Assembly (NCBI GenBank): GCA_963971285.1
Contig: OZ020246.1
Coordinates: 14,491,217 to 14,555,216 of the forward strand
Source: Astropecten irregularis
Taxonomy: Eukaryota; Echinodermata; Asteroidea; Paxillosida; Astropectinidae
Direction of reading: 5' to 3'
DNA length: 64,000 nt
The notes under the pieces: model-generated
Told to the model about the DNA's origin: nothing
The model's input: the letters and a program-made list of their open reading frames with translations, nothing else
Database searches by the model: none
Shown here: positions 3,430-60,357 of the stretch, one piece after another
How the letters are laid out: every line of letters starts with the position of its first letter
Position numbering within the stretch: position 1 is the first letter of the stretch
Made by a program: the position numbers and the translations under genes

Positions 3430-4733
3430 TTGAAAACTGCCTGCTCATTTCTGGGGGAAATTAAGGAAAAACAAAATTACACGTGTCTTTTTATTTTCAG
3501 TGTAGATCATACATCTGAATTTTTGAACCTGAAGTCGCCCTGCTTAGCGAAATCTGGAATGATTTATAAATCACGTTATGACGTGCTACACTGTATGTGT
3601 ATTATGGTAGCACGCAGTCTAATCCGATATTTTGAACACGATCTTTGAAAACTGCCTGCTCATTTCTGGGGAAAATTTAGGGAAAACAAAATTACACGTG
3701 TCTTTTTATTTTCAGTGTAGATCATATATCTGAATTTTTGAACCTGAAGTCGCCCTGCTTAACGAAATATGCAATGATTTATGAATCACGTTATGACGTG
3801 CTACACTGTATGTGTATTATATATGGCAGCACGCAGTCTAATCCTATATTTTGAACACGATCTTTAAAAACTGCCTGCTCATTTCTGGGTAAAACTCAGG
3901 AAAACAAAATTACACGTGTCTTTTTATTTTCAGTGTAGATTATATATCTGAATTTTTTAGCCTGAAGTCGGCCTGCATAGCGAAATCTGTAATGTTTTAT
4001 AAATCACGTTATGACGTGCTACACTGTATGTGTATTATATATGACAGCGCGCTGTCCAATCCTATATTTTGAACACGATCTTTGAAAACTGCCTTCTCAT
4101 TTCTGGGGAAAATTAAGGAAAAACAAAATTACACGTGTCTTTTTATTTTCAGTGTAGATCATACATCTGAATTTTTGAACCTGAAGTCGCCCTGCTTAGC
4201 GAAATCTGGAAGGATTTATAAATCACGTTATGACGTGCTACACTGTATGTGTATTATGGTAGCACGCAGTCTAATCCTATATTTTGAACACGATCTTTGA
4301 AAACTGCCTGCTCATTTCTGGGGAAAATTCCGGGAAAACAAAATTACACGTGTCTTTTTATTTTCAGTGTAGATCAAACATCTCAATTTTTGAACCCGAA
4401 GTCGCCCTGCTTAGCGAAATATGCAATGATTTATAAATCACGTTATGACGTGCTACACTGGATGTGTATTATATATGGCAGCACGCAGTCTAATCCTATA
4501 ATTTGAACACGATCTTTGAAAACTGCCTGCTCATTTCTGGGTCAAACTCAGGAAAACAAAATTACACGTGTCTTTTTATTTTCAGTGTAGATTATATATC
4601 TGAATTTTTTAGCCTGAAGTCGGCCTGCATAGCGAAATCTGTAATGTTTTATAAATCACGTTATGACGTGCTACACTGTATGTGTATTATATATGACAGC
4701 GCGCTGTCCAATCCTATATTTTGAACACGATCT
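3430..4733 (+). repeat. Six-monomer HOR, copy 2 (1304 bp)
   Basis: Monomers at 3430, 3645, 3864, 4082, 4297 and 4516 repeat the A-F order of 2126-3429. By eye only a few bases differ, for example copy 1 reads AATTTGTGAACC near 2868 and copy 2 AATTTTTGAACC. This points to recent duplication. Confidence 0.92.
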
Positions 4734-22330: not shown

Positions 22331-23183
22331 TTGAAAACTGCCTGCTAATTTCTGGGGAACATTCAGGGAAAACAAAATTACACGTGTCTTTTTATTTTCA
22401 GTGTAGATCATATATCTGAATTTTTGAACCTGAAGTCGCCCTGCTTAGCGAAATATGCAATGATTTATAAATCACGTTATGACGTGCTACACTGTATGTG
22501 TATCATATATGGTAGCACGCAGTCTAATCCTATAATTTGAACACGATCTTTGAAAACTGCCTGCTCATTTCTGGGTCAAACTCAGGAAAAACAAAATTAC
22601 ACGTGTCTTTTTATTTTCAGTGCAGATCATATATCTGAAATTTTTAGCCTGAAGTCGGCCTGTATAGCGAAATCTGTAATGTTTTATAAATCACGTTATG
22701 ACGTGCTACACTGTATGTGTATTATATATGACAGGGCGCTGTCCAATCCTATAATTTGAACACGATCTTTGAAAACTGCCTGCTCATTTCTGGGGAAAAT
22801 TAAGGAAAAACAAAATTACACGTGTCTTTAAATTTTCAGTGTAGATCATACATCTGAATTTTTGAACTTGAAGTCGCCCTGCTTAGCGAAATCTGGAATG
22901 ATTTATAAATCACGTTATGACGTGCTACACTGTATGTGTATTATGGTAGCACGCAGTCTAATCCTATATTTTGAACACGATCTTTGAAAACTGCCTGCTC
23001 ATTTCTGGGGAAAATTCAGGGAAAACAAAATTACACTTGTCTTTTTATTTTCAGTGTAGATCATATATCTGAATTTTTGAACCTGAAGTCGCCCTGCTTA
23101 GCGAAAGCTGCAATGATTTATATATCACGTTACGACGTGCTACACTGAGTGTGTTTTATATATGACAGCGCGCTGTCCAATCC
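22331..23183 (+). repeat. Right-edge block of domain I (4 monomers)
   Basis: Monomers at 22331, 22550, 22769 and 22984. The 22769 monomer has GTCTTTAAATTTTC in place of GTCTTTTTATTTTC. The last has CACTTGTC, which destroys the ACACGTGT palindrome, and the pre-element signature. The same run precedes the elements at 27780, 31719 and 35658, so this block is the tail of an element-bearing unit. Confidence 0.88.
22984..23183 (+). repeat. Pre-element edge monomer (example)
   Basis: This monomer immediately precedes the element. It is diverged in its second half, reading GAAAGCTGCAATG, CACGTTACGACGTG and CACTGAGTGTGTTTTA before GACAGCGCGCTGTCCAATCC. The T-to-C change in CACGTTACGACGTG keeps the CACGT/ACGTG arms. 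The same signature lies upstream of every full element copy whose upstream flank is in the window, and is seen once without an element, at about 60280. Confidence 0.9.
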
Positions 23184-23411
23184 AATAATACAAAGGGTTG
23201 GGAACTTGACCATATGTCACTGACTATGCCAAACGACTGGCTCATGCCACGCTTATAGGCAAGCCCGTAGAGCCTGCGTGGACAAAAATGAGTTGTGACA
23301 TGAAATGGTCTTGGATTATGTTTGTCATAGTCAGTAAGATTCGGTCTAGTTCACACCTTCGTGCATAGGTTTGTGCATGGGACCATTGTTAAAGCGCATG
23401 AGGACTTTTTT
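23184..23411 (+). repeat. Interspersed 228-bp element, copy 2 (reference copy)
   Basis: This sequence is unrelated to the monomer and lies between CCAATCC and AATCCTATATTTTG, so AATCC is present on both sides. It starts AATAATAC and ends GGACTTTTTT. Arms at 23219-23234 and 23320-23335 form a 16-bp inverted repeat with one mismatch. Between them, 23247-23260 (4-nt bulge) pairs with 23272-23281. It has no ORF of note and no terminal inverted repeats. It could be a short non-autonomous element, a structured RNA fragment, or a remnant of the sequence the array first grew from. No known family was recognised. This copy alone reads ATACAAAGG; later copies read ATACGAAGG. Confidence 0.9.
23219..23335. 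other. Nested stem-loop in the interspersed element
   Basis: The outer stem pairs ACTGACTATGCCAAAC (23219-23234) with GTTTGTCATAGTCAGT (23320-23335), one mismatch in 16. The inner stem pairs CCACGC+AGGC (23247-23252 and 23257-23260, with TTAT bulged) with GCCTGCGTGG (23272-23281) around an 11-nt loop. Stability was not computed. The other full copies keep both sets of arms as far as I read them. Confidence 0.7.
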
Positions 23412-26400
23412 AATCCTATATTTTGAACACGATCTTTGACATCTGGCTGCTCATTTCTGGAGCAAACTCAGGAAAAACAAAATTACACGTGTCTTTTTAT
23501 TTTCAGTCTAGATCATATATCTGAATTTTTGAACCTGAAGTCGCCCTGCTTAGGAAATATGCAATGATTTATAAATCACGTTATGACGTGCTACACTGTA
23601 TGTGTATTATATATGGCAGCACGCAGTCTAATCCTATAATTTGAACACGATCTTTGAAAACTGCCTGCTCATTTCTGGGGAAAATTCAGGGAAAACAAAA
23701 TTACACGTGTCTTTTTATTTTCAGTGTAGATCATATATCTGAATTTTTTAGCCTGAAGTCGGCCTGCATAGCGAAATCTGTAATGTTTTATAAATCACGT
23801 TATGACGTGCTACACTGTATGTGTATTATATATGACAGCGCGCTGTCCAATCCTATATTTTGAACACGATCTTTGAAAACTGCCTGCTCATTTCTGGGGA
23901 ATATTAAGGAAAAACAAAATTACACGTGTCTTTTTATTTTCAGTGTAGATCATACATCTGAATTTTTGAACCTGAAGTCGCCCTGCTTAGCGAAATCTGG
24001 AATGATTTATAAATCACGTTATGCCGTGCTATACTGTATGTGTATTAAATATGGCAGCACGCAGTATAATCCTATATTTTGAACACGATCTTTGAAAACT
24101 GCCTGCTCATTTCTGGGGAAAATTCAGGGAAAACAAAATTACACGTGTCTTTTTATTTTCAGTGAAGATCATATATCTGAATTTTTTAACCTGAAGTCGC
24201 CCTGCTTAGCGAAATTTGCAATGATTTATATATCACGTTATGACGTGCTACACTGTATGTGTATTATACATGGCAGCACGCAGTCTAATCCTATATTTTG
24301 AACACGATCTTTGAAAACTGCCTGCTCATTTCTGGGTCAAACTCAGGAAAAACAAAATTACACGTGTCTTTTTATTTTCAGTGAAGATCATATATCTGAA
24401 TTTTTTAGCCTGAAGTCGGCCTGCATAGCGAAATCTGTAATGTTTTATAAATCACGTTATGACGTGCTACACTGTATGTGCATTATATATGACAGCGCGC
24501 TGTCCAATCCTATATTTTGAACACGATCTTTGAAAACTGCCTGCTCATTTCTAGGGAAAATTAAGGAAAAACAAAATTACACGTGTCTTTTTATTTTCAG
24601 TGTAGATCATACATCTGAATTTTTGAACCTGAAGTCGCCCTGCTTAGCGAAATCTGGAATGATTTATGAATCACGTTATGACGTGCTACACTGTATGTGT
24701 ATTATGGTAGCACGCAGTCTAATCCTATATTTTGAACACGATCTTTGAAAACTGCCTGCTCATTTCTGGGGAAAATTCAGGGAAAACAAAATTACACGTG
24801 TCTTTTTATTTTCAGTGTAGATCATACATCTGAATTTTTGAACCTGAAGTCGCCCTGCTTAGCGAAATCTGGAATGATTTATAAATCACGTTATGACGTG
24901 CTACACTGTATGTGTATTATGGTAGCACGCAGTCTAATCCTATATTTTGAACACGATCTTTGAAAACTGCCTGCTCATTTCTGGGAAAAATTCAGGGAAA
25001 ACAAAATTACACATGTCTTTTTATTTTCAGTGTAGATCATATATGTGAATTTTTGAACCTGGAGTCGCCCTGCTTAGCGAAATATGCAATGATTTATAAA
25101 TCACGTTATGACGTGCTACGCTGTATGTGTAATATATATGGCAGCACGCAGTCTAATCCTATATTTTGAACACGATCTTTGAAAACTGCCTGCTCATCTC
25201 TGGGGAAAATTCAGGGAAAACAAAATGACACGTGTCTTTTTATTTTCAGTGTAGATCATATATCTGAATTTTTTAGCCTGAAGTCGGCCTGCATAGCGAA
25301 ATCTGTAATGTTTTATAAATCACGTTATGACGTGCTACACTGTATGTGTATTAAATATGGCAGCACGCAGTCTAATCCTATATTTTGAACACGATCTTTG
25401 AAAACTGCCTGCTAATTTCTGGGGAACATTCAGGGAAAACAAAATTACACGTGTCTTTTTTTATTTTCAGTGTAGATCATATATCTGAATTTTTGAACCT
25501 GAAGTCGCCCTGCTTAGCGAAATATGCAATGATTTATAAATCACGTTATGACGTGCTACACTGTATGTGTATCATATATGGTAGCACGCAGTCTAATCCT
25601 ATAATTTGAACACGATCTTTGAAAACTGCCTGCTCATTTCTGGGTCAAACTCAGGAAAAACAAAATTACACGTGTCTTTTTATTTTCAGTGAAGATCATA
25701 TATCTGAATTTTTTAACCTGAAGTCGCCCTGCTTAGCGAAATTTGCAATGATTTATATATCACGTTATGACGTGCTACACTGTATGTGTATTATACATGG
25801 CAGCACGCAGTCTAATCCTATATTTTGAACACGATCTTTGAAAACTGCCTGCTCATTTCTGGGTCAAACTCAGGAAAAACAAAATTACACGTGTCTTTTT
25901 ATTTTCAGTGAAGATCATATATCTGAATTTTTTAGCCTGAAGTCGGCCTGCATAGCGAAATCTGTAATGTTTTATAAATCACGTTATGACGTGCTACACT
26001 GTATGTGCATTATATATGACAGCGCGCTGTCCAATCCTATATTTTGAACACGATCTTTGAAAACTGCCTGCTCATTTCTAGGGAAAATTAAGGAAAAACA
26101 AAATTACACGTGTCTTTTTATTTTCAGTGTAGATCATACATCTGAATTTTTGAACCTGAAGTCGCCCTGCTTAGCGAAATCTGGAATGATTTATGAATCA
26201 CGTTATGACGTGCTACACTGTATGTGTATTATGGTAGCACGCAGTCTAATCCTATATTTTGAACACGATCTTTGAAAACTGCCTGCTCATTTCTGGGGAA
26301 AATTCAGGGAAAACAAAATTACACGTGTCTTTTTATTTTCAGTGTAGATCATACATCTGAATTTTTGAACCTGAAGTCGCCCTGCTTAGCGAAATCTGGA

Positions 26401-27779: not shown

Positions 27780-28007
27780 AATAATACGAAGGGTTGGGAA
27801 CTTGACCATATGTCACTGACTATGCCAAACGACTGGCTCATGCCACGCTTATAGGCAAGCCCGTAGAGCCTGCGTGGACAAAAATGAGTTGTGACATGAA
27901 ATGGTCTTGGATTATGTTTGTCATAGTCAGTAAGATTCGGTCTAGTTCACACCTTCGTGCATAGGTTTGTGCATGGGACCATTGTTAAAGCGCATGAGGA
28001 CTTTTTT
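27780..28007 (+). repeat. Interspersed element, copy 3
   Basis: Full 228-bp copy with GGAC before the final T6, followed by an alpha-type monomer. It differs from copy 2 at the ATACGAAGG position. Confidence 0.93.
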
Positions 28008-31718: not shown

Positions 31719-31946
31719 AATAATACGAAGGGTTGGGAACTTGACCATATGTCACTGACTATGCCAAACGACTGGCTCATGCCACGCTTATAGGCAAGCC
31801 CGTAGAGCCTGCGTGGACAAAAATGAGTTGTGACATGAAATGGTCTTGGATTATGTTTGTCATAGTCAGTAAGATTCGGTCTAGTTCACACCTTCGTGCA
31901 TAGGTTTGTGCATGGGACCATTGTTAAAGCGCATGAGGACTTTTTT
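31719..31946 (+). repeat. Interspersed element, copy 4
   Basis: Full 228-bp copy, GGAC form, exactly 3939 bp after copy 3. Confidence 0.93.
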
Positions 31947-35657: not shown

Positions 35658-35885
35658 AATAATACGAAGGGTTGGGAACTTGACCATATGTCACTGACTA
35701 TGCCAAACGACTGGCTCATGCCACGCTTATAGGCAAGCCCGTAGAGCCTGCGTGGACAAAAATGAGTTGTGACATGAAATGGTCTTGGATTATGTTTGTC
35801 ATAGTCAGTAAGATTCGGTCTAGTTCACACCTTCGTGCATAGGTTTGTGCATGGGACCATTGTTAAAGCGCATGAGGACTTTTTT
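35658..35885 (+). repeat. Interspersed element, copy 5
   Basis: Full 228-bp copy, GGAC form, followed by an alpha-type monomer. Confidence 0.93.
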
Positions 35886-38070: not shown

Positions 38071-38167
38071 ATTATGTTTGTCATAGTCAGTAAGATTCGG
38101 TCTAGTTCACACCTTCGTGCATAGGTTTGTGCATGGGACCATTGTTAAAGCGCATGAGGATTTTTTT
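38071..38167 (+). repeat. Interspersed element, copy 6 (truncated, 97 bp)
   Basis: Only element bases 132-228 remain. The junction joins monomer sequence CCTAT to ATTATGTTTG of the element, with ATT shared by both partners, a 3-bp microhomology. The left outer-stem arm and the whole inner stem-loop are lost. It ends in GGA plus seven Ts and AATCC. Confidence 0.92.
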
Positions 38168-39478: not shown

Positions 39479-39706
39479 AATAATACGAAGGGTTGGGAAC
39501 TTGACCATATGTCACTGACTATGCCAAACGACTGGCTCATGCCACGCTTATAGGCAAGCCCGTAGAGCCTGCGTGGACAAAAATGAGTTGTGACATGAAA
39601 TGGTCTTGGATTATGTTTGTCATAGTCAGTAAGATTCGGTCTAGTTCACACCTTCGTGCATAGGTTTGTGCATGGGACCATTGTTAAAGCGCATGAGGAT
39701 TTTTTT
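39479..39706 (+). repeat. Interspersed element, copy 7
   Basis: Full 228-bp copy, GGAT form (seven terminal Ts), followed by the first beta-type monomer. Confidence 0.93.
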
Positions 39707-41455: not shown

Positions 41456-41683
41456 AATAATACGAAGGGTTGGGAACTTGACCATATGTCACTGACTATG
41501 CCAAACGACTGGCTCATGCCACGCTTATAGGCAAGCCCGTAGAGCCTGCGTGGACAAAAATGAGTTGTGACATGAAATGGTCTTGGATTATGTTTGTCAT
41601 AGTCAGTAAGATTCGGTCTAGTTCACACCTTCGTGCATAGGTTTGTGCATGGGACCATTGTTAAAGCGCATGAGGATTTTTTT
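41456..41683 (+). repeat. Interspersed element, copy 8
   Basis: Full 228-bp copy, GGAT form, followed by a beta-type monomer. Confidence 0.93.
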
Positions 41684-45393: not shown

Positions 45394-45621
45394 AATAATA
45401 CGAAGGGTTGGGAACTTGACCATATGTCACTGACTATGCCAAACGACTGGCTCATGCCACGCTTATAGGCAAGCCCGTAGAGCCTGCGTGGACAAAAATG
45501 AGTTGTGACATGAAATGGTCTTGGATTATGTTTGTCATAGTCAGTAAGATTCGGTCTAGTTCACACCTTCGTGCATAGGTTTGTGCATGGGACCATTGTT
45601 AAAGCGCATGAGGACTTTTTT
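45394..45621 (+). repeat. Interspersed element, copy 9
   Basis: Full 228-bp copy, GGAC form, followed by an alpha-type monomer. Confidence 0.93.
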
Positions 45622-48022: not shown

Positions 48023-48250
48023 AATAATACGAAGGGTTGGGAACTTGACCATATGTCACTGACTATGCCAAACGACTGGCTCATGCCACGCTTATAGGCA
48101 AGCCCGTAGAGCCTGCGTGGACAAAAATGAGTTGTGACATGAAATGGTCTTGGATTATGTTTGTCATAGTCAGTAAGATTCGGTCTAGTTCACACCTTCG
48201 TGCATAGGTTTGTGCATGGGACCATTGTTAAAGCGCATGAGGATTTTTTT
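48023..48250 (+). repeat. Interspersed element, copy 10
   Basis: Full 228-bp copy, GGAT form, beta-type monomer after it. First element of the first 5.7-kb super-unit. Confidence 0.93.
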
Positions 48251-50652: not shown

Positions 50653-50880
50653 AATAATACGAAGGGTTGGGAACTTGACCATATGTCACTGACTATGCCA
50701 AACGACTGGCTCATGCCACGCTTATAGGCAAGCCCGTAGAGCCTGCGTGGACAACAATGAGTTGTGACATGAAATGGTCTTGGATTATGTTTGTCATAGT
50801 CAGTAAGATTCGGTCTAGTTCACACCTTCGTGCATAGGTTTGTGCATGGGACCATTGTTAAAGCGCATGAGGATTTTTTT
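50653..50880 (+). repeat. Interspersed element, copy 11
   Basis: Full 228-bp copy, GGAT form. It has the private mark GGACAACAATG (elsewhere GGACAAAAATG), shared only with copy 14. Confidence 0.93.
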
Positions 50881-51323: not shown

Positions 51324-51551
51324 AATAATACGAAGGGTTGGGAACTTGACCATATGTCACTGACTATGCCAAACGACTGGCTCATGCCACGCTTATAGGC
51401 AAGCCCGTAGAGCCTGCGTGGACAAAAATGAGTTGTGACATGAAATGGTCTTGGATTATGTTTGTCATAGTCAGTAAGATTCGGTCTAGTTCACACCTTC
51501 GTGCATAGGTTTGTGCATGGGACCATTGTTAAAGCGCATGAGGATTTTTTT
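51324..51551 (+). repeat. Interspersed element, copy 12
   Basis: Full 228-bp copy. It has the GGAT end but is followed by an alpha-type monomer, a combination not seen in copies 2-5 or 9. This implies exchange between element and flank. Confidence 0.93.
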
Positions 51552-53737: not shown

Positions 53738-53965
53738 AATAATACGAAGGGTTGGGAACTTGACCATATGTCACTGACTATGCCAAACGACTGGCTCATG
53801 CCACGCTTATAGGCAAGCCCGTAGAGCCTGCGTGGACAAAAATGAGTTGTGACATGAAATGGTCTTGGATTATGTTTGTCATAGTCAGTAAGATTCGGTC
53901 TAGTTCACACCTTCGTGCATAGGTTTGTGCATGGGACCATTGTTAAAGCGCATGAGGATTTTTTT
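53738..53965 (+). repeat. Interspersed element, copy 13
   Basis: Full 228-bp copy, GGAT form, beta-type flank. It lies 5715 bp after copy 10 and starts the second super-unit. Confidence 0.93.
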
Positions 53966-56367: not shown

Positions 56368-56595
56368 AATAATACGAAGGGTTGGGAACTTGACCATATG
56401 TCACTGACTATGCCAAACGACTGGCTCATGCCACGCTTATAGGCAAGCCCGTAGAGCCTGCGTGGACAACAATGAGTTGTGACATGAAATGGTCTTGGAT
56501 TATGTTTGTCATAGTCAGTAAGATTCGGTCTAGTTCACACCTTCGTGCATAGGTTTGTGCATGGGACCATTGTTAAAGCGCATGAGGATTTTTTT
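56368..56595 (+). repeat. Interspersed element, copy 14
   Basis: Full 228-bp copy with the GGACAACAATG mark shared with copy 11, exactly 5715 bp away. Confidence 0.93.
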
Positions 56596-57038: not shown

Positions 57039-57266
57039 AATAATACGAAGGGTTGGGAACTTGACCATATGTCACTGACTATGCCAAACGACTGGCTCAT
57101 GCCACGCTTATAGGCAAGCCCGTAGAGCCTGCGTGGACAAAAATGAGTTGTGACATGAAATGGTCTTGGATTATGTTTGTCATAGTCAGTAAGATTCGGT
57201 CTAGTTCACACCTTCGTGCATAGGTTTGTGCATGGGACCATTGTTAAAGCGCATGAGGATTTTTTT
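57039..57266 (+). repeat. Interspersed element, copy 15
   Basis: Full 228-bp copy, GGAT form with alpha-type flank, as in copy 12. Confidence 0.93.
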
Positions 57267-59667: not shown

Positions 59668-59895
59668 AATAATACGAAGGGTTGGGAACTTGACCATATG
59701 TCACTGACTATGCCAAACGACTGGCTCATGCCACGCTTATAGGCAAGCCCGTAGAGCCTGCGTGGACAAAAATGAGTTGTGACATGAAATGGTCTTGGAT
59801 TATGTTTGTCATAGTCAGTAAGATTCGGTCTAGTTCACACCTTCGTGCATAGGTTTGTGCATGGGACCATTGTTAAAGCGCATGAGGATTTTTTT
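59668..59895 (+). repeat. Interspersed element, copy 16 (last in the window)
   Basis: Full 228-bp copy, GGAT form, followed by a beta-type monomer at 59920. No further copy occurs downstream. Confidence 0.93.
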
Positions 59896-60357
59896 AATCC
59901 TATATTTTGAACACGATCTTTGACATCTGGCTGCTCATTTCTGGAGCAAATTCAGGGAAAACAAAATTACACGTGTCTTTTTATTTTCAGTGTAGATCAT
60001 ACATCTGAATTTTTGAACCTGAAGTCGCCCTGCTTAGCGAAATATGCAATGTTTTATAAATCACGTTATGACGTGCTACACTGTATGTGCATTATATATG
60101 ACAGCGCGCTGTCCAATCCTATATTTTGAACACGATCTTTGAAAACTGCCTGCTCATTTCTGGGGAAAATTAAGGAAAAACAAAATTACACGTGTCTTTT
60201 TATTTTCAGTGTAGATCATACATCTGAATTTTTGAACCTGAAGTCGCCCTGCTTAGCGAAAGCTGCAATGATTTATATATCACGTTACGACGTGCTACAC
60301 TGAGTGTGTTTTATATATGGCAGCACGCAGTCTAATCCTATATTTTGAACACGATCT
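59896..60357 (+). repeat. Exit junction of the element-bearing domain (2 monomers)
   Basis: The 60139 monomer has the pre-element signature (GAAAGCTGC, TTACGACG, GAGTGTGTTTTATATATGG). It then continues into CAGCACGCAGTCTAATCC of an ordinary monomer where an element would be expected. This is the only place where the complete signature is not followed by an element. Confidence 0.88.

Follow-up and report, generated by a model that had tools for sequence, protein, structure and literature searches.

A probable foldback-element fragment multiplied within a satellite array of Astropecten irregularis

Introduction

Short mobile elements are known to occur within satellite DNA, as in the case of an ant MITE and a mariner-like element inserted in satellite DNA (PMC5139131; also PMC12628747). 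In the mollusc satellite Cg170, the relevant passages of PMC5139131 describe 'cut-and-replace' events, and MITEs that themselves contain tandem repeats are represented by the pearl family of bivalves (PMC5139131) and by miDNA4 of Xenopus (PMC12628747). Satellite arrays of the ananassae subgroup are, according to the passages concerned in PMC11917152, only sporadically interrupted by insertions. In the literature that we searched, no description matched a MITE insertion co-amplified with a satellite monomer, and six strings of 16-17 bases from the monomer and the element had no occurrence.

Here, we analyzed a stretch of 64,000 nucleotides from Astropecten irregularis (GCA_963971285.1; contig OZ020246.1, denoted as C9; C9:14491217-14555216), which we call the window, and searched the genome of 475.7 Mb in 168 contigs. 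A sequence-only reading of the window had described a 228-bp element, fixed at one monomer position, as a single original insertion or founder remnant spread by array expansion.

Results

Element copies in the window and in the whole array

The window is satellite throughout, with a 219-bp monomer, 278 anchors and a mean pairwise difference of 8.1% among its monomers. Fourteen anchor intervals measure 452 bp and contain a full element copy, and one of 320 bp contains a truncated copy. When the 228-bp block at 23184-23411, as delimited in the earlier reading and denoted here as E, was compared with the window by BLAST, 14 full and two partial copies were found, all on the + strand. The full copies lie at 23184-23411, 27780-28007, 31719-31946, 35658-35885, 39479-39706, 41456-41683, 45394-45621, 48023-48250, 50653-50880, 51324-51551, 53738-53965, 56368-56595, 57039-57266 and 59668-59895. 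They are 98.7-100% identical to 23184-23411, and aligning them, as the earlier reading had proposed, revealed three variable sites (9, 103 and 222). One partial copy is cut by the window start (1-139, E 90-228) and is complete in the genome (C9:14491128), and the other (38071-38167, E 132-228) is truncated at its 5' side and joined to the monomer after AATCCTAT. The spacings between successive full copies (671, 1977, 2414, 2629-2630, 3821, 3938-3939 and 4596 bp) are uneven, as expected from unequal exchange. The 16 copies counted earlier are therefore 14 full and two partial ones, and the block itself has to be shortened: its first six bases (23184-23189) most likely derive from the satellite monomer, since related copies read TATAAT there and a monomer variant reads AATCCTATAATTTGAA, which leaves 222 bp (23190-23411) that are not satellite.

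The satellite array around the window spans 143 kb (C9:14,414,191-14,557,244) with 610 anchors, and its element copies, 44 full and one truncated, all lie on the + strand. Two segments of the array, of ~14 kb (14.4434-14.4576 Mb) and ~23 kb (14.4914-14.5144 Mb), contain no element, so the element-free and element-rich domains that the sequence-only reading had described in the window alternate along the array, although the supposedly free stretch at 140-23183 begins right after the copy that straddles the window start. This stretch has short higher-order patterns of its own, with three- and six-monomer units such as bif/bjf and ehbckj, unlike the element-rich part. No element copy lies in the ~107 kb of non-satellite flank covered by the analysis.

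Contig C9 is rich in various satellites. Its 2-kb samples at 12.0 Mb, 13.0 Mb, 15.5 Mb and 5.0 Mb (L025, L017, L022 and L028) hold other tandem repeats, with periods of 217, 192, 116 and 31 bp, respectively. Among the element copies listed, those at C9:14.4-14.86 Mb are on the + strand and those at C9:17.2-18.2 Mb on the - strand; the satellite arrays of C9 are therefore in opposing orientation, with more than 2 Mb between them.

Junctions and linked variants in the flanking monomers

Every full copy in the window is set between ...GTCCAATCC and AATCCTATATTTTG... on its two sides. The 60-bp 5' flanks are identical in the 14 full copies and end in AATCC (23179-23183 at the copy 23184-23411), which is repeated after the block as monomer position 1 (23412-23416), and AATCCTATATTTTGAACACGATCTTTGACATCTGGC directly follows all 14 full and both partial copies. 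In the 143-kb array the insertion point is identical in 44/44 full copies, where the block is preceded by AATCC in 43 and by AATTC in one. The claim of one insertion point with shared flanking monomers, made for the window, thus holds for its 14 full copies and, as to the insertion point, for all 44 of the array.

Clustering of the monomers into 23 types placed a single type, l, before 14/14 full copies (22960-23183 at the copy above). In this monomer, variants at positions 148, 174, 189, 190 and 196 are linked and fixed (14/14), compared with 0.4-4.5% of the other 264 window monomers. Three haplotypes occur downstream (23412-23630 at the same copy), namely type a after seven full copies, type s after the other seven and type r after the truncated copy, and their first part is common to all three. 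Here, the variants at positions 29, 31, 35 and 50 are fixed in 16/16 element-adjacent monomers; in the rest of the window three of the four are absent and one is found at 2.7%. One l-type monomer without an element (60115-60334, + strand) carries the five 5' variants (148-196) followed by an ordinary monomer end near the insertion point; it may have arisen by recombination or may be what is left of the empty site.

The core shared around the copies extends at least 203 bp to the left and at least 110 bp to the right, and further out the surroundings differ between copies. Among the 14 full window copies there are three variable sites in the 228-bp element, six in the 224-bp 5' monomer with none in its last 75 bp, and two in the first 60 bp 3' of the element. 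As such, the element varies to much the same degree as its near flanks and is not clearly more conserved than they are. The locus has the makeup of a satellite with composite higher-order repeats, in which the element is held at a fixed monomer position with linked variants and multiplied with its neighbours. Because all 44 copies share one site, the flank variants are linked and the wider context shifts, the data support that the full copies of this array are one junction multiplied by array expansion, with no repeated transposition.

Foldback structure of the block and its long form

The block pairs with itself over E 7-179 with a score of 86, compared with 26.7 ± 6.2 and a maximum of 60 in 500 shuffles. 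Based on the self reverse-complement alignment and the folds, the surviving inner 5' arm (23190-23256, E 7-73) pairs with a portion of the 3' arm (23290-23362, E 107-179), where both inner limits are approximate. The remaining 49 bp (23363-23411), which end in GGA(C/T)TTTTTT, form an outer 3' arm that is unpaired within the window form, and the matching 5' outer arm of ~47 bp is absent. The monomer is not a foldback, since its self-score was 36 versus 30.1 ± 6.9.

The mirror image of this tail was found 5' of ACGAAGG in six of eight other stretches (L049-L053 and L056; C12, C9:17.2 Mb and C9:14.86 Mb); of the remaining two, L054 has a short copy and the start of L055 falls within a copy. The long form is a foldback of ~268 bp with mirrored ends, AAAAATCC...GGATTTTT. 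Aligned with its own reverse complement, the long form of L049 scored 170, whereas shuffles gave 27.7 ± 6.1 with a maximum of 58 (n=300). The outer arms are ~77% alike (75/97 aligned bases match), and RNA folds of the long form gave z scores of -12.0 and -10.1 (100 shuffles each). The fold energies of the window form and the long form were -74.4 and -122.5 kcal/mol, respectively. Inverted repeats that reach both ends are present in the long form and absent from the short form of the window, where the 5' outer arm is gone. The data do not support the view of the sequence-only reading that the block is the original insert; judging from the aligned arms, it appears to be a 5'-truncated form of the 268-bp foldback that lacks ~47 bp of the 5' arm. 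The 268-bp form is in turn the core of a larger foldback, since the inverted repeat extends further at two loci (L062 on C8 and L064 on C18) and spans 571 bp at the former.

A 10-kb stretch (L057, which includes L056) holds eight long copies and one short copy, the latter with the junction AATCCTATAATACGAAGG. In 8/8 of its long copies the monomer runs to position 149, followed by a spacer of 9 bp (seven copies) or 10 bp (one copy), CTCCCCCTA, and monomer position 1 resumes 2 bp after the element. According to these two junctions, the long form replaces monomer positions ~150-217. The upstream monomers of long-form copies also carry GGCTGC, and the 3' flank variants GACATCTGGCTG are missing after 6/8 long copies in this stretch, where GAAATCTGCCTG is found instead. 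The linked flank variants are private to the array of the window rather than to the element. Short-form copies in this second block of C9 (L009, L020, L054 and L057) read AATCC TATAAT ACGAAGG, and the window array has AATAAT in place of TATAAT, one change away.

Distribution in the genome

A 32-base piece of the element matched 2006 places (962 + 1044) with up to three mismatches, compared with 0 for the control; C9 accounts for all 100 of the places listed. With a 30-base piece taken from the 5' side of the element, 87 places were found, 44 on C9 and 43 on C12. The 5' junction of the long form, used as a fixed-length pattern, had 170 occurrences (control 0), the first 100 listed being on C9, C10, C12 and C15. 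Nothing matched the long form at E 0.1 in 124 kb of C9 samples devoid of this satellite, a set that overlaps the ~107-kb flanks.

Six places, in five stretches (L061-L065), fit a pattern designed to leave out the known satellite junctions, and four of these places adjoin satellite (L062, L063 and two in L065). The other two, L061 (C8:24.2 Mb) and L064 (C18), are relatives of 68-70% identity with no satellite match within the 1.2-1.3 kb covered. At L062 (C8:26.04 Mb) a copy of 84% identity lies near a single monomer, and at L063 (C10) a copy of 91% identity lies in satellite; its 5' junction is that of the long form (monomer position 149), and its 3' junction is near position 18. L065 (C19:13.17 Mb) has two copies in the opposite orientation to the satellite, which they join at monomer position 22. 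A pattern for the 5' end of the long form that leaves out the usual flank was found at eight places, all at C19:10.41-10.53 Mb, and the stretches L058-L060, which cover four of these, have the same reversed arrangement at monomer position 22. The reversed C19 copies (L058, L059, L060 and L065) have a spacer of ~70-105 bp on their other side, and the spacer of L058 matches the C8 locus.

There is therefore more than one junction between element and satellite in the genome, namely the reversed junction at position 22 on C19 and the 3' junction near position 18 on C10. Since the element of C19 is reversed at another monomer position, the view of a single event, which stands for the array of the window, fails genome-wide. 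Likewise, copies at other monomer positions and a longer element that contains the block, either of which the earlier reading had said would change its view, are not seen in this array and are both present elsewhere, as the reversed C19 copies and as the 268-bp form with its larger foldback, respectively.

For the outer arm beyond the 268 bp, the best 40 of 375 candidates were scored, with 78-100% identity on 13 contigs; 13 of these 40 belong to a single tandem series on C1, another is the query, and of the other 26 the one on C18 (L064) was inspected as sequence. The 13 copies on C1 (C1:24203353-24224900) are spaced by ~1.34 kb or multiples thereof, and the series may be another site where the foldback family turned tandem. 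With the outer arm on 13 contigs and with L061 and L064 free of satellite in their stretches, the family appears to be dispersed at unrelated loci, as MITEs or foldback elements are. We infer transposition from dispersal and structure, because neither the C8 palindrome nor the satellite junctions examined showed a clean target-site duplication on inspection by eye; the sequence covered stops short of the true ends of the larger element.

Searches for known families

To compare the block with known families, we implemented several searches. Rfam gave 0 of 4227 families at the gathering threshold. A permissive Rfam search (E 5; one copy and its flanks) gave four weak matches, none of which lay inside the element. 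ARAGORN, with bacterial code settings, found 0 tRNA genes in the element. The three longest reading frames over E matched 0 Pfam families at E 1, and E is in this respect non-coding and without transposase, as a MITE or foldback element would be. The CENP-B-box core had 0 matches in the window even with two substitutions. Relatives were also sought in prokaryote or virus collections, with no hit in viral_contigs (three patterns), genome_contigs (two patterns), phages (one copy plus flanking monomers) or plasmids (the element).

Discussion

Taken all together, we consider it quite likely that the block is a truncated, non-coding, MITE-like foldback fragment that was captured in the satellite, trimmed by recombination and then passively amplified. 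A dispersed foldback, whose inverted repeat spans 571 bp at one locus, would have lost its outer arms, and its 268-bp core would have come into a monomer in place of positions ~150-217, as the junctions suggest. In one lineage, an exchange could then have linked an ordinary monomer (AATCCTATAAT) with the ACGAAGG of the element, at a short patch in which the monomer (TATAATTTGAA) and the long form (ATATTACGAA) are alike. Through it, the outer 5' arm would have lost ~47 bp while monomer positions 150-219 were regained, and AATCC would flank both sides because the lost part of the monomer was restored. Considering the shared junction, the linked variants and the changing context, the composite repeat was multiplied within the arrays by unequal exchange and block duplication. 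The element would be a passive passenger, and its hairpin is now incomplete. The pair of AATCC is more likely a by-product of recombination than a target-site duplication, and the copy at 38071 fits the same kind of exchange with another breakpoint. The direction from the long to the short form is suggested by the symmetry of the long form and by the apparently monomer-derived TATAAT.

The reading that survives best beside this one, which we regard as unlikely, is that the monomer and the foldback were once neighbours in one larger non-autonomous transposon and that the satellite grew from a part of it. The 'insert' would then be a relic or boundary of the parent unit, of which one copy would have survived at the C8 locus. 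This locus (L066, L062 and L067; C8:26038500-26041200, around C8:26.04 Mb) contains the 571-bp foldback and, at a distance of 104 bp, a single diverged monomer (positions 1-217, 75.6%). Their relative orientation matches that in the window, and the similarity to the monomer begins at the monomer position of the 3' junction of the element. The C19 spacer (L058, 77-170) also matches the C8 locus, 465 bp past the foldback (71%, E 1.6e-9), and the C19 units align with the locus in two alignments of 62% identity, 781 and 793 bp long, that span monomer, spacer and foldback; however, both may just bridge unrelated DNA between two true matches. Many places contain monomer-like DNA, and at some of them a single match was scored (best 40 candidates). 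On the other hand, as read from the coordinates, no place other than the query locus pairs both families closely among the best 40 candidates of each search, a weak point given that the lists end there, and the monomer and the element share no sequence. A common origin of satellite and element is possible.

A simpler history, in which the 222-228-bp block is a complete small element, such as a retroposed RNA or a SINE ending in a T run, that was inserted once with a target-site duplication of 5 bp (AATCC) or an imperfect one of 11-16 bp, appears very unlikely to us. It would account for the AATCC on both sides of 14/14 full window copies, for the T run at the 3' end, for the bases past AATCC, which resemble the monomer at 8/11 positions (80 of 5000 random strings do as well), and for the related copies that read AATCCTATAAT. 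However, the long form shows the T run to be the end of a mirrored arm (AAAAATCC...GGATTTTT), and its 3' junction, at monomer position 1, resembles that of the block while its 5' junction differs; moreover, the block had no tRNA and no Rfam match. The long form also speaks against a simple target-site duplication, as long-form copies have no AATCC pair. A duplication directly outside a complete element, as a SINE should have, was not found, and the AATCC pair of the short form fits the joint between monomer and element.

That the hairpin is kept by selection, as a cruciform or a hairpin RNA serving the array at a centromere or through small RNAs, seems highly improbable. The long form does fold strongly, the 32-mer of the element has its 2006 matches genome-wide, and the arrays lie near the middle of contig C9 (28.8 Mb). 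Yet the form amplified here is the one with the weaker fold, in which ~47 bp of one arm are missing; this loss speaks against selection on a hairpin, and the array has its ~14- and ~23-kb segments without the element. The element is also not clearly more conserved than its flanks, and its arms differ (75/97 match). Lastly, the element as a diverged monomer is rejected, since 122/500 shuffles score as well on the + strand and 498/500 on the - strand, which bears out the lack of similarity to the monomer that had been read from the window.

Read as a truncated and passively amplified foldback fragment, the block offers a legible case of satellite arrays that take up, trim and multiply a piece of a transposon, with the long form, the truncated form, single relatives and array copies all within one genome. 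It illustrates how a repeat array can raise the copy number of a passenger in the absence of further transposition and that a by-product of recombination is able to mimic a target-site duplication. With its linked variants, several junction types and domains with and without copies, the element is also a natural tag for unequal exchange, and the case provides both a clean example and a lead on the origin of this satellite.

Compared with the MITEs and other elements in satellite arrays, to the extent that they are described in PMC5139131 and PMC12628747, the likeness lies in a short inverted-repeat element within monomers; here, in contrast, a truncated core has been spread by the array, long and short forms occur together and no target-site duplication was seen. 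The 'cut-and-replace' events of Cg170, as outlined in PMC5139131, similarly have a part of the monomer missing with unrelated DNA in its place, whereas here ~68 bp of monomer are replaced by ~279 bp rather than by a segment of similar length, and the composite recurs with the same 5' junction on several contigs. In tandem-repeat-containing MITEs, as presented in the same two sources, a satellite-like repeat adjoins an inverted-repeat element as it does at the C8 locus; here one such locus was seen, and none of the sequences recovered is a complete element that encloses the repeat. The hairpin-RNA loci of Drosophila, as far as PMC10317233 and PMC10292708 portray them, share the inverted-repeat unit, which here has many copies and outer arms that are ~77% alike. 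The kind of event is already known, and the present case contributes a set of intermediates in one genome.
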